Below, in pieces: positions 6,930 to 62,147 of a DNA stretch of 64,000 nt (within the stretch, counting starts at the first letter, position 1; each line of letters opens with the position of its first letter). The DNA is from Halothermothrix orenii H 168 (lineage in GTDB: Bacteria; Bacillota; Halanaerobiia; Halanaerobiales; Halothermotrichaceae), in assembly GCF_000020485.1 (NCBI RefSeq), contig NC_011899.1, positions 1,396,501-1,460,500 of the forward strand, in the 5' to 3' direction. The notes under the pieces are model-generated. The model ran no database searches, was not told the origin of the DNA, and saw only the letters and a list, made by a program, of their open reading frames with translations. The position numbers and the translations under genes are program-made.

Positions 6930-9431
6930 TTAGTAAATTACAAGGGTTTTAGAAACCGTAGAAGGAAGGGCATCCTTAGCCTCAGCAACAGCCATCACTT
7001 TATAGGAACCTGGTTCCAGCTCAGCAGTTACATTACCTGGAATTTTGGCAATAAATACGCCGGGGATAGCTTCATCTGCTTTAAATTTATATTCCTTATC
7101 CCCCGCCAGCAGGGTCAGAGTAACATTACCTGCTTCAGCAAGTTTACCTTCTTTTTCAGGGTATTCTATACTGGTCACATGGATATCAACAAGGATATCC
7201 TTACCTTTTTCAGACATAACAGGTAATTCTAACTGGTCTATTACCAGACGGGTTGACTTAAAGTGTTCCATCCAGTAGCCCGGTTCGAAGGGATAAGTTT
7301 CATCCCTGAAAGCTGTTAATTCAGCAAAACTGGTTTCCGGATCATATTTACTTAAATAGAAGGGCCCATTACTGATATAACCATGGCCATATTTTTCAAT
7401 AAAATCAAGGGCAGCCTTATATCTTTTTATACATTCTTCTGGAGTTATATAGTCCTTTATAGATACAGGCACGTGTTTTTCTTCTATCATTTCTCTTAAT
7501 TCAGCCTTGAGATCCTCAACATGGGAAGGAGTAAGGAGGTCAACTTCTTCAGTACCTTTAATACCCTTGGAGAATGAATACTTTGTACCAGAAGTTGAAC
7601 CTTCGGCGACCATCCGGGCCAGGGCTTCTAAAATCTCCCAGCTAACGCCACAGTAATGGCCTGAAGCAGTTACATCAAAGTAAGGAGCTCCCTGGGCCAG
7701 AGCCCTTTTCTTACTGGCCGGGAAGTTGTAATTAAAATAATTAATGGCTACATTGTTTTCCAGGTCATATATAGTGGCAACATCAATATCAAATGCATTC
7801 ATATTTGCAGCATAACTCTTATCATAATAGGGGTCTCCTTCAAAGTCTTTGGTAGACCATTCTTCTATAAATGCATCTGCATACATAAAGTCTACCAGGC
7901 TCATGGGAATACCGTGGTGGTAGTTACTTAACCTATATCTGTAAACACCTTTGGTAAAGGCAGTTTTACCGGGCCCGATTTCAACCCACTTCTCTTCAAC
8001 CGGGTCATAATAAATTGCATCTTCAGGAACAGGCACATCTCCCACTACTTCTCCATCTTCATTCCGGTGTACCTTGGTATAACTTTCATCCATATCGGGA
8101 ATAGCCCTGAGCCAGGTAAATTCAGCAGTAGAAGGACTTTCAAAGACAGCGTTGTCATATAATGGCTCTGCTATATAACCAATATAGGTATCATCAAATC
8201 CACCGGCTCCCACCGGGTCCCAGGCACTCATAAAGAGGCTCCCCTGGGAAGAAAGTTCCGTAACTCTCAAAATCCTATCTTTAGTCCTGGCAGTAACAAT
8301 GGAATATTTACTGGGGCCATCACCTAAACCGTAAGCAAACCTACCTTCAAAGCGCTCTTTATGGGCCAGATAGTTTGCAGTTGAATAGCAGACATAGATA
8401 CGCTGGGATTCATCGAGGGCTATGTCAAGTGCTGTCAGAACTAAATCCCAGTATTCTTCAGTAGTTAAAAAGTTACCGGAATAGGCCTTCTGGGCTATAC
8501 TATCAAGTTCTTCATTTTTGAATACCCAGCCATCAGCAAGGGCACCTGCTGTAAACCCACCCCAGGAGGCGTACATCTGACCGACGATATGTTCCCACCA
8601 CGCTCTGGTAGCACCTGCTGACCATGCTTCTGTGTAAAGATTCCATCCATAGTCTTCAGGTCTACCGAAATATACCGTTTCCACACACCTGGCCCGTTCC
8701 CAGACCAGTCTTTCCACTTTAAAACCGGCTTTTTCCAGCTGGTTGGCAACATATTCCCCGAGTGGCATTCTTACCTGTGGGTCATCAGCCCTGATAAGGA
8801 ATTTAAGGGTGATAGGTTTGCCATCATATGTCCATCATTTACCCTCTTTTTTAAGCCTTCCCTCGTTTTCAGGTAAAGAAGCTGCCTTATTCATAGCTTC
8901 ATTAATCATATCCAGGGCCTTTGCTTCATCACCTTCCGGAGTAAACCCTTTCTTAATACTTACCAGATTATACTTGTAAGTACCAGGCTGTCCAGGGGTA
9001 GCCATGTCAAACATGGGGGCCCCGCCACCGTCCAGGATTTCGTCAATAATATACTGCCTGTTAATTAAGAAATTCATTGCAAACCTGATCTTTTTGATAG
9101 CAAAAGGATTAAAGAATGTTTCTCCATCTTTTTCAAGGGTGTAGGGAGCCTTGTTTGGATAGGGATTAAATGGAATTGAAAAAGACAGGGCTGGAACAGA
9201 ATATATTTCCAATTTGTCCAGTTCTTCAGGAGATAAAGAGTTGATTAGAGGAGTTTCAACACCTTCAAGGAAGAGATCAGTCTTTCCTTCAATAACATCT
9301 TTAATTCCTATCTCCTTCTGCATTCTTACATTATAGTATACTTTATCGGGGTAAGGACCTTTTTCAGCCAGAACACTGACAGATAATAATAAAGCTAACA
9401 CAACCAGCAAACTAACTCTAAATAATCTCAT
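6930..9431 (-). pseudogene. Extracellular solute-binding protein family 5, with in-frame TGA at 8835-8837
   Basis: The reading frame codes for an 833-residue lipid- or membrane-exported binding protein of the peptide/nickel class, but codon 199 is TGA. The frame continues unbroken from both sides: ...GRLKKEGK, stop, then WTYDGKPITLKFLIRADDP, which is family-typical sequence. The N-terminus has a signal peptide (MRLFRVSLLVVLALLLSVSVLA). At 198 residues, the terminated product cannot bind substrate. Homologues usually have Trp around this place (GKW.YDGKP), so TGG to TGA is likely. The gene heads the opp operon, with a strong promoter, and has AAGGAGG 13 bases before ATG. A sequencing error, a true nonsense mutation or readthrough cannot be told apart here. 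Confidence 0.8.
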
Positions 9432-49604: not shown

Positions 49605-49781
49605 TTATTGACTGCCTTTTAAACTATTTGGCATTTCTACAACTTTTAAGCCAAATAATTTTTCTATTCTTATTTTACCTATCTCATATCTGTTCCTATA
49701 ATCTTTATCCCCTGCCCCACCCCAGGACAAACTTACAGTTGCTACTTTATCTCCTCTTTTTAATTTTTCTGGTTTTATCAT
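49605..49781 (-). pseudogene. N-terminal fragment of an LD-carboxypeptidase (peptidase S66)
   Basis: A 58-codon frame (IKPEKLKRGDKVATVSLSWG ... KLFGLKVVEMPNSLKGS, then a stop) matches the start of MccF/LdcA-like S66 peptidases, which are about 300 residues long. The nucleophile region and the rest are missing, so this is a remnant. AGGAGG lies 16 bases before the ATG. It fills most of the apparent gap 49512-49875. Confidence 0.6.
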
Positions 49782-53862: not shown

Positions 53863-54423
53863 ATGTCAAAAGAAAAAACTTCAAAAGCTATACTAACTGC
53901 GGCCCTTAAACTTTTTTCAAAAAAGGGTTACAGTAATGTAACCACAAAAGAAATATCTGAAAAAGCCGGGGTAAATGAGGTAACTATATTTAGACATTTT
54001 AAATCTAAAGAAAAACTCTTTGAAGAAGTATTTGAACAATTTATATTTAAACCAAATATTCCTGATGTTAATGCCCTGAATAATAAAAACCCTAAAGAAT
54101 TTTTATTATGTATGGCTCATTCGTTATACGAGATATTTAAATATAATTTATCCTTAATAAAAATTGAATTGAAAAATGAGGAAACCTCTATTGATAAAAT
54201 GAGATTACCTTTAGATAAATTTGCAAATGAAATAAAAGATATTATAATAGATTATTTAAAAAAGAACAAAGAAATAAATATTTCTCAACCAGATATTTTC
54301 ACAATTAACTTCCTTTCTGCTGTCTGGGGGCTATTCATGAATAATCATATCATCAGACCCTTTAAACCAGCAATTGATTTTAACACCTGTATAGAAAAAC
54401 TGATTACTGATCTTCTTGAATAA
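53863..54423 (+). CDS. TetR/AcrR-family regulator
   Basis: A 186-residue repressor with helix-turn-helix AALKLFSKKGYSNVTTKEISEKAGVNEVTIFRHFKSKEKLF at residues ~12-53 and a variable ligand domain. ATG follows GAGGTGG. Its promoter carries a perfect 12-bp palindrome. It probably controls itself and the iron-sulfur reductase gene 56 bases downstream; ligand unknown. Confidence 0.88.
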   Translation: MSKEKTSKAILTAALKLFSKKGYSNVTTKEISEKAGVNEVTIFRHFKSKEKLFEEVFEQFIFKPNIPDVNALNNKNPKEFLLCMAHSLYEIFKYNLSLIKIELKNEETSIDKMRLPLDKFANEIKDIIIDYLKKNKEINISQPDIFTINFLSAVWGLFMNNHIIRPFKPAIDFNTCIEKLITDLLE

Positions 54424-54479: not shown

Positions 54480-55523
54480 ATGGGTAAAAAATTTTCACAA
54501 ATTCAAACCAAAATGGAAAGGAAATTTCTTAAGCGTATAAAAAAACATCCCGATAAAGTCATTATGGCCCACAAGAATTCTGTACAGGAAGGGTTTGAAT
54601 ATTTCGAGTCTAAACATGGTTTATTAATAAAAAATATGTTTTTTGCAATGGGATTAAAAAATGCTTTGAAAATACTAAAAATAATGGCTAAATATATGCC
54701 TTCTATGCTTCGCGAAAGAAATAAATGTTTTACAGATCTAGAAGAATATCTTAATGAAATTAATGAAAGTGGTCAAATTTCATCAACGGCTCAAGAAAAA
54801 TACCTAATTGAAAGTTATCCAAATAAAGAATTATGGAATAAATTAAAAAACTATGCATGGGAAAAGTGGGGAGTTATCATTGGCTTTACTGAACTGCCAA
54901 GACAACTAATATTTAAAGATAAAGCTGTCTTATTTAAATATGCCCTGGTCTGTATCCAGGAAATGGATAAAAATAAAATAGATTTGGCTCCTGAGCTTGA
55001 TGCGGGAGAAGAAGTACAGAGAGTTTATAATTCATTAGGAATTGCTGTAAACGATATCGCTAACTGGTTACGTAAAAATTTCGGAATCAAATGTCAAAGC
55101 AACCACCCTCTTGGTGGTCTGGTAGATACATCACCTTTAGCAGGTAAAGCTGGACTGGGTTGGCAAGGACATAACGGATTATTAATTACTCCACAATTCG
55201 GACCCCGTAACCGAATTGCACCAATTTTGATAAAAAATAAGCTTTTTGAATTTACCGATAATCACGAACATGTCTGAATTGAAAATTTTTGTGAAAAATG
55301 TAGAAAATGTGAAAAATCATGTCCTACTCAGGCAATCTATCCTAAAAAACAACCATCTATTGAAAATATTCCGGGAATAAATCAAACAAGAACCTGTATT
55401 GACCGTGAAAAGTGTTACCCACAATTTAGCAAAACACTGGGCTGTAGTATTTGCATGAAGGTCTGCCCTTTTTCACAAGGAGATAACATTTACTACACTA
55501 TTAAAGAAAATTTTTTGAACTAA
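54480..55523 (+). pseudogene. Double 4Fe-4S reductase (epoxyqueuosine-reductase/reductive-dehalogenase-like), with in-frame TGA at 55275-55277
   Basis: The frame codes for 347 residues but codon 266 is TGA. Upstream are QueG-like motifs (LVDTSPLAGKAGLGWQGHNGLLITPQFGPRNR). Downstream, in the same frame, both 4Fe-4S sites follow: FCEKCRKCEKSCPTQAIYP and GCSICMKVCPFSQG. Every cluster cysteine is after the stop, so the terminated 265-residue product could not hold the clusters. Relatives usually have Trp here (EHVWIENFC), so TGG to TGA is likely. GGGGG precedes ATG. Actual role (reductase coupled to the TetR regulator) is inferred. Confidence 0.8.
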
Positions 55524-56691: not shown

Positions 56692-57045
56692 TTACTTTTC
56701 TTCTACATAAATAGCTGCTTCTTTTTTCTTAAATATTAAATCAAAGTTACGATAACCAACCTCATTAAATAACTTTTCCTGTGTTTTTACTGAAAGATTT
56801 TCTTTGTTTGCCCATTCGGTTAACCCTTCTATTGCTACCGGGGATAAATCAATGGCTTTAACATTGAATCCAGCTTTAGCAAACTGTATTGAATGTCTTC
56901 CTCTTCCACAGCCTAAATCAAGAAAATTATTAAATCCTTTTTCTTTCCAACGATTGATTAAATAGTATGATTCCTCACAAGGTATAAACCATATCTCATC
57001 TGTACTTTTATTCCAATTCCAAGCTTTAGAAATTTTATTCTGCAT
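56692..57045 (-). pseudogene. SAM-dependent methyltransferase with internal deletion
   Basis: A 117-residue frame. Residues 1-~85 are a methyltransferase start with motif I FLDLGCGRGRHSIQFAKAGFNVKAIDLSP. The remainder (KTQEKLFNEVGYRNFDLIFKKKEAAIYVEE) looks like the C-terminal end of such a protein. About 100 central residues, including motifs II and III, are missing, so catalysis is unlikely. ATG at 57045 follows CTGGAGGAG. Its start is 41 bases from the end of attC-like element B, as in integron cassettes. Confidence 0.65.
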
Positions 57046-57085
57046 TATATCTCCTCCAGATATATTTATTGAATTAGCCAATGTA

Positions 57086-57287
57086 GTCTAACGTTCTATC
57101 ATGCAGAATTACCGCACTGGGCTCCTCAGGAATATTCTCTTCCGTAATTTCAGGCAAATATAAATTGTTCTTAGAATTGTCATAGCTTTAGCCACCATAT
57201 ACCCTTATATAGCAAAAGACATGACAAAGGCAATGTCCCGCAGGGTAGGCTCGCTCTTTAGCCGTCAACGGAAATACCATGTTAGAC
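57086..57287 (-). repeat. attC-like element B
   Basis: Both ends fit the integron consensus exactly: GTCTAAC (57086-57092) and GTTAGAC (57281-57287) on the plus strand, reverse-complementary to each other over seven bases. It contains GCAAAAGACATGACAAAGG, identical in element G, 4.9 kb away. The half next to the methyltransferase gene may be replaced by a coding remnant (an open frame reads across the box). Confidence 0.62.
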
Positions 57288-60787: not shown

Positions 60788-61330
60788 TCACATGTCGTAT
60801 AACGTATCCGTATTGCTATTATTTATTAAGTACTTTACTACACTATCATCTTGGTTTGACCCAATAATTTCATCTGCATATTTCTTTAATTCATTTTTTG
60901 CATTACTTACTGCTACTGCTTTTAAAGCTTCCCTGAACATTTTAATATCATTAGCATTATCACCAAAAACAATTAAATCATTTAAATTATGACCAGTTAT
61001 TTTTACTAGTTCCTTTATAGCCTGGTCCTTTGTTGCTTTTACATCATGAATTGTTAACCAATACCATCCAGGAAAATAGTCGTTTTCCATTAGAAGTATT
61101 TCAACCATTTCTCCGTACTTTTTTTCTAAAACTAAACTTAATTCTTCTAATTTTTCTTTTTTATCTATTATGGTAAAACAAACTATGTGTTCATCCATCA
61201 CTTTTTTCAATGGATCAACTTGAGTTAACCTACTACCCCCTACTATCCTTTGAATTTTTTCTATCATCCACATACCATTTAATTCCTTCGTTTTGTATGT
61301 CAACGTAATATAATAAATCCTTTTCACCAT
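60788..61330 (-). pseudogene. C-terminal half of a Cof-type HAD phosphatase
   Basis: A 180-residue frame with the C-terminal HAD motifs of Cof enzymes: KATKDQAIKELVKITGH, DLIVFGDNANDIKMFREALKAVAVSNAKNELKKYADEIIG and SVVKYL. The N-terminal part with the nucleophile Asp (DxD) is missing, so it is inactive. Its last codons (DTLYDM) run across the GTATAAC box of element E, so the gene's true end was lost. Confidence 0.65.
60797..60803 (-). repeat. attC-like half-site E
   Basis: GTATAAC on the plus strand (GTTATAC on the minus strand) followed by the TTG-started DUF3784-like gene 58 bases away. The rest of the element is missing; the HAD remnant is joined straight to it. Confidence 0.4.
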
Positions 61331-61440: not shown

Positions 61441-61968
61441 TTAACCTAAATCAAAAGATATATACTCACTCCAATCATTTCCCTTCTTGATATATATTCC
61501 AATTTTTCCAGCTTTCAAAACTAAAGGGGTTTTTCCAAACTTTGCAAAATACTCTTCAATAATTCGTCGATTTTCTTCAATTTTTTGCCCAAAAGCTATG
61601 GTCATATGATAAATTGGAAAACCAAATTTTTTATCACTAAAATGTGGAAAACTATTATATAATTTTTCTGTTAATTTCTCAATTGGTGTTACAGGTACCG
61701 GTGATAAGTACAACACATTAGTAGTTGGAAAACTTGATAATGGTTTTGCAAAAAAATCAAATTTTGGGGTTCTTCTTGCAATACTAGTTAACTTACCTAT
61801 TACTGTTTCATCAATTTCATGTGGTAAGTAAAAATCATATTACAATGTGATATGAAAAGGTACCGCCTTCCCAGAATTTTTAATATATTTTTGCCTGAAT
61901 TTTTCTAATCCATCTATTTTGTTATCAGGAAAAAGACATACTATGCTTCTCTCAGCTTTATCACTCAT
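61441..61968 (-). pseudogene. 2H phosphoesterase/2'-5' RNA ligase-like protein with in-frame TAA
   Basis: A 175-codon frame with two HxT motifs, HITL (codons ~40-43) and HMTIAFG. TAA at 61840-61842 (codon 43) follows HITL, where homologues have hydrophobic residues (HITLLY). An in-frame ATG after the stop would lack the first HxT. Otherwise the frame is unbroken. AAGGA precedes the ATG at 61968. Confidence 0.65.
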
Positions 61969-62010
61969 TAAATATCATTCCTTATTAAAAATATAATTTT
62001 GAGTTATGAT

Positions 62011-62147
62011 TCGACGTTACCGTACCGTTAGGGTTGGCATGGCTTTTGCTGCAACAACCTCTTACCCTTCTTTTGCAAAAGACATGACAAAGGTAATGTC
62101 CCTACAGGGTAGTCTGCTTTTTGGCGTCACGGGAAATCTTGTTATCT
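62011..62147 (-). repeat. attC-like element G
   Basis: Right box GTTATCT (62141-62147) with GGCGTCACGGGAA before it, shared with I. It has the internal GCAAAAGACATGACAAAGG identical to B. The left box is lost: GTCGAAT stands where GTTRRRY is expected. Confidence 0.55.

Follow-up and report, generated by a model that had tools for sequence, protein, structure and literature searches.

The reductase-like gene at positions 54480-55523 (+) of the window, i.e., the 64,000-nucleotide stretch analyzed here, which represents positions 1396501-1460500 of the closed 2,578,146-base chromosome of the halophilic bacterium Halothermothrix orenii, contains a single in-frame TGA at codon 266 (55275..55277, +) that most probably reflects a recent TGG-to-TGA nonsense mutation. 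The frame extends from an ATG at 54480 to a TAA at 55521-55523 and would specify 347 residues if the TGA were read through. According to the open reading frame listing and the orthologue alignment, its translated part comprises 265 codons up to the TGA (54480..55277, +), and the continuation of the frame (55278..55523, +) consists of 81 codons and the TAA, with no further stop or frameshift. The earlier note had proposed that the TGA occupies a tryptophan position and cuts off both iron-sulfur sites, and both proposals are borne out: the four nearest orthologues (L032/L071, L033/L070, L072 and L073) carry TGG as codon 266, tryptophan is also present at this position in more distant relatives, e.g., L034, and the first cysteine motif, CEKCRKCEKSCP (55290..55325, +; Cys 271, 274, 277 and 281), as well as the second, CSICMKVCP (55443..55469, +; Cys 322, 325 and 329), are located past the TGA in the same frame.

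In the read-through protein, residues 271-331 match the 4Fe-4S double cluster domain PF13484 (32.6 bits, versus the Pfam cut-off of 30). The protein scores 75 bits with the reductive dehalogenase model TIGR02486 (curated cut-off 160) and 51.6 bits with the QueG model TIGR00276 (curated cut-off 200), both scores being under their cut-offs. By sequence it is only distantly related to reductive dehalogenases and epoxyqueuosine reductase. Another, uninterrupted relative of the reductase superfamily is present in the H. orenii genome at 1168707.

It is proposed that a G-to-A change converted the conserved TGG 266 to TGA, and that RF2 would terminate translation at this codon. The predicted 265-residue product would be devoid of the double [4Fe-4S] domain and, hence, of electron transfer, so that the gene, situated beside a TetR regulator, would represent a copy of a small reductive-dehalogenase/QueG-like iron-sulfur protein that was inactivated recently. 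Its mutation would be one of a few stop-generating changes in this genome, among which TGA, TAA and TAG are all represented. Of the three options which the earlier note had left, nonsense mutation is the likeliest, base error is possible and partial readthrough is unlikely. If the change is an ordinary nonsense mutation, it is chiefly of importance for annotation: the interruption should be indicated for both the reductase-like gene and the opp-type gene described below, and metabolic reconstructions of H. orenii should not include their products.

Conservation and neighbourhood of the interrupted gene

The orthologue search covered 60 related genomes, among which intact orthologues were found in G058 (74% identity over the whole length) and G028 (59% identity), and two further orthologues (L072 and L073) were obtained from metagenome-assembled genomes; a scan of genome_contigs added just two close relatives to those already known. 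A stop at the corresponding position was not found in any other species among the orthologues searched, and the stop is thus specific to this lineage. A chance open frame is ruled out by the 74% whole-length identity to an intact orthologue, together with the concentration of substitutions relative to G058, before and after the TGA alike, at third codon positions.

The dN value of the reductase gene relative to G058 is 0.173 upstream and 0.141 downstream of the TGA. Of the columns that do not vary among three other orthologues, 15 of 128 upstream and 3 of 45 downstream are changed in H. orenii, the corresponding figures for G058 being 6/119 and 2/44. Relaxed constraint past the TGA, to be expected if the mutation were old and not otherwise, was seen neither in dN against G058 nor at the invariant columns; evolution of the gene may be somewhat accelerated as a whole, but not specifically past the TGA. 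The absence of a further lesion past the TGA, the retention of the cysteines and a downstream dN that does not exceed the upstream value count against the nonsense reading to some degree, since 81 undecayed codons imply that the TGA is recent, is a base error or is not fully effective; if a nonsense mutation, it would consequently have to be young, unless the full-length product retained some residual use.

The reductase-like gene is located just 3' of an intact gene encoding a TetR-family regulator of 186 amino acids (53863..54423, +; PF00440, 3e-19), and the G058 orthologue has the same neighbour, the two TetR proteins being 69% identical. The copies closest to the H. orenii gene come from a spirochaete bin and from a different family within the class, and most members of the order do not possess the gene. 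Because of this patchy distribution and the low GC content of the region (28-31%, compared to 38% for the H. orenii genome; PMC2626281), the TetR-reductase pair was probably acquired laterally.

The AT-rich neighbourhood is a region undergoing gene loss. It contains a truncated methyltransferase gene (56692-57081, -), whose profile is matched in part only, a remnant of a Cof-type hydrolase gene whose N-terminal half is missing (60788-61330, -) and a 2'-5' RNA ligase-like gene (61444..61974, -) that is interrupted by a TAA at 61840-61842, 6.5 kb from the reductase TGA, with PF13563 matching across the stop (8e-15). At 49605-49607 (-) of the window, a cyclase gene is joined in frame, via a TAA, to a short fragment that resembles coding sequence. 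A repeated segment, GGGACATTGCCTTTGTCATGTCTTTTGC, occurs at 57212-57239 (-) and 62075-62102 (-) with similar flanks; when up to four mismatches are allowed, a 1.264 Mb sample of the genome contains ten copies.

Stop-interrupted genes elsewhere in the genome

The earlier note had paired the reductase TGA with a second one in the window, in an opp-type solute-binding protein gene (6930..9431, -; TGA at 8835-8837, codon 199). This position is likewise a conserved tryptophan: of the five homologues nearest to the opp-type gene, four (L104-L106 and L108) have TGG there. A count of TGA at conserved tryptophan positions had been suggested for the whole genome, and was made for about 49% of it, i.e., 1.264 Mb in stretches that include the window, by scanning for frames that continue to code across a stop with no start nearby. 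Most candidates were either ends of genes or adjacent genes that share a frame, and were removed by eye or by means of Pfam. The resulting counts are small, dependent on manual filtering and to be read as lower bounds. Recovery of the reductase-like gene required relaxed settings, under which no further convincing TGA case was found in the 1.264 Mb.

In total, five TGA-interrupted genes were identified, three of them at tryptophan positions (the reductase-like gene, the opp-type gene and a chemoreceptor gene), compared to 2,697 TGG codons in long frames. In the chemoreceptor (2351325; L101:11325, -), the position is tryptophan in 8 of 14 homologues, several of the others having alignment gaps. 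The remaining two TGAs are not at tryptophan codons: that of an RHS-like protein (1983804; L098:3804, -) had given the impression, based on a motif, of a tryptophan site, which was discarded as a 97% identical paralogue has glycine, and that of an M42-type peptidase (589265; L157:9265, -) corresponds mostly to Glu or Lys, and never to Trp, in homologues. Four genes are interrupted by TAA or TAG. Apart from the RNA ligase-like gene described above, such stops were located, following homology checks, in genes encoding an ABC transporter membrane domain (TAA, 2343164) and a rubrerythrin-like protein (TAG, 577830), and, on the basis of paralogue comparison within the genome, in a TIR-domain gene (CAP12/Pycsar effector type, PF10137) whose two copies carry the same in-frame TAA (34297 and 1475510; L083:14297 and L164:15010). 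The published genome lists 24 pseudogenes (PMC2626281).

The suggested count thus yielded three cases of the expected kind, together with TAA, TAG and non-tryptophan TGA interruptions. A mutation model based on the genome's own codon usage and a G:C>A:T bias predicts that 31-52% of TGA nonsense changes affect tryptophan codons, and under this model the observed three of five are unremarkable (P 0.18-0.53); equal mutation rates, which are unrealistic, would give P 0.007. TGA accounts for five of about 9-10 interruptions, versus an expected 22-23% (P about 0.05 for 5/10), a share that is slightly above expectation, at the edge of significance, and is counted against the nonsense reading. A TGA-specific excess was nevertheless rejected, as the two scans of half the genome returned a mixed set of stops. 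The proposal that the reductase and opp-type TGAs jointly hint at UGA-specific readthrough was not upheld, in view of this mixed set, a plain CCA-bearing tRNA-Trp and the presence of RF2, and there is no special mechanistic link between the two.

A possible, if rather unlikely, alternative is that the finished sequence has a base error at this site, and that the chromosome carries TGG within an intact gene. Its appeal lies in the isolated nature of the change within an otherwise intact and conserved gene, and in the published error rate, given only as below 1 in 50,000 (PMC2626281), at which the genome could contain as many as about 50 errors. This rate, however, is an upper limit for a finished Sanger genome, and as only a few percent of random substitutions generate stops, the roughly nine isolated stops in half of the genome cannot all be errors; moreover, the truncations that have broken nearby genes are not base errors.

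Decoding apparatus

The conclusion of the earlier note that UGA is not fully reassigned is confirmed. The RF2 gene (prfB) is present with its in-frame UGA autoregulatory frameshift site, CTTTGAC (L078:2515-2521, -), and TGA terminates 107 of 700 long frames. The tRNA-Trp genes, whose inspection had been advised, are two in number and different (L027:1498-1573, -, and L001:1417-1492, +), one of them adjoining the tmRNA gene. Both specify a CCA anticodon, A9, G24 and a five-pair anticodon stem, and neither exhibits a lineage-specific change. The anticodon stem of the tmRNA-linked tRNA-Trp consists entirely of Watson-Crick pairs, and the main tRNA-Trp, encoded beside tRNA-Thr, has wobble pairs G27-U43 and G10-U25. 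A UCA anticodon was not found among 52 tRNA places, all of which were covered by ARAGORN on the fetched loci. The published count is 56 tRNAs (PMC2626281), and the difference probably resides at least partly in stretches of N, e.g., within rRNA operons. UGA-to-Trp reassignment was accordingly rejected, there being no UCA anticodon, four-pair stem, A9C or G24A, with RF2 present and TGA common as a stop.

Occasional readthrough of UGA as tryptophan by tRNA-Trp(CCA), such that a leaky stop would lower and not abolish the amount of full-length protein, is quite improbable. It would accommodate the three tryptophan sites among the five TGA interruptions and the lack of decay past the reductase TGA; in-frame stops with dN/dS below 1 are, furthermore, widely reported in bacterial genes (PMC7918605), and opening of the 27-43 pair of tRNA-Trp, where the main H. 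orenii tRNA has its G27-U43 wobble, promotes UGA reading in E. coli (PMC13092985). Both wobble pairs, however, also occur in most tRNA-Trp genes recovered from the order, and are thus not a change tied to the interrupted genes, the searched orthologues of the order having no TGA at these positions; a special tRNA-Trp behind the TGAs was rejected for this reason. Positions 9 and 24, the sites of UGA-suppressing changes, are a normal A and G, RF2 with its UGA autoregulation is available, and TAA, TAG and non-tryptophan TGA interruptions coexist with those at tryptophan codons. A stop is leaky when TGA is directly followed by C, and the base directly 3' of the reductase TGA is A. It is very doubtful that the wobble pairs at 27-43 and 10-25 allow the H. 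orenii tRNA-Trp(CCA) to read UGA to an extent that keeps genes with TGA at tryptophan codons alive, without reassignment. If readthrough were demonstrated, this thermophile with the standard code would be of use as an example of near-cognate decoding by a tRNA-Trp of normal appearance.

Insertion of selenocysteine at the TGA, as might be considered for an in-frame TGA near a redox domain, has a negligible probability and is refuted by the missing SelA: selA was not found in the genome search, all selB matches were under the cut-off, and orthologues have Trp and not Cys at this position. Retention of the shortened 265-residue protein for a new role can hardly be credited either, as the intact and conserved frame before the TGA is matched by an equally conserved downstream part, which leaves no time for separate selection of a shortened form, and a relative with such a form was not found among the orthologues searched.

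Comparison with known systems

The nonsense, base error and readthrough readings all fall within known biology. With the UGA-reading tRNA-Trp(CCA) species that possess a four-pair anticodon stem or A9C/G24A (PMC13092985), H. orenii shares TGA at tryptophan codons, the CCA anticodon and a wobble pair at 27-43; it differs in having a five-pair stem, normal A9 and G24, a wobble feature that is order-wide, RF2, and TGA as a common stop. As for the protein itself, the alignment with reductive dehalogenase (TIGR02486; PDB 8q4h and 4uqu) and QueG (TIGR00276; PDB 5d08) extends over the double [4Fe-4S] module at its C-terminus and some of the domain before it, whereas its N-terminal part is unmatched and its scores (75 and 52 bits) are below the respective cut-offs of 160 and 200. 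The preferred reading, that of a recent nonsense mutation, finds its counterpart in single-stop pseudogenes, or short-lived in-frame stops, of bacterial genes (PMC7918605), from which the H. orenii stop differs in having no orthologous counterpart in a second species, and which it resembles in the presence of one stop in an otherwise intact frame, in past purifying selection and in the occurrence of all three stop types.
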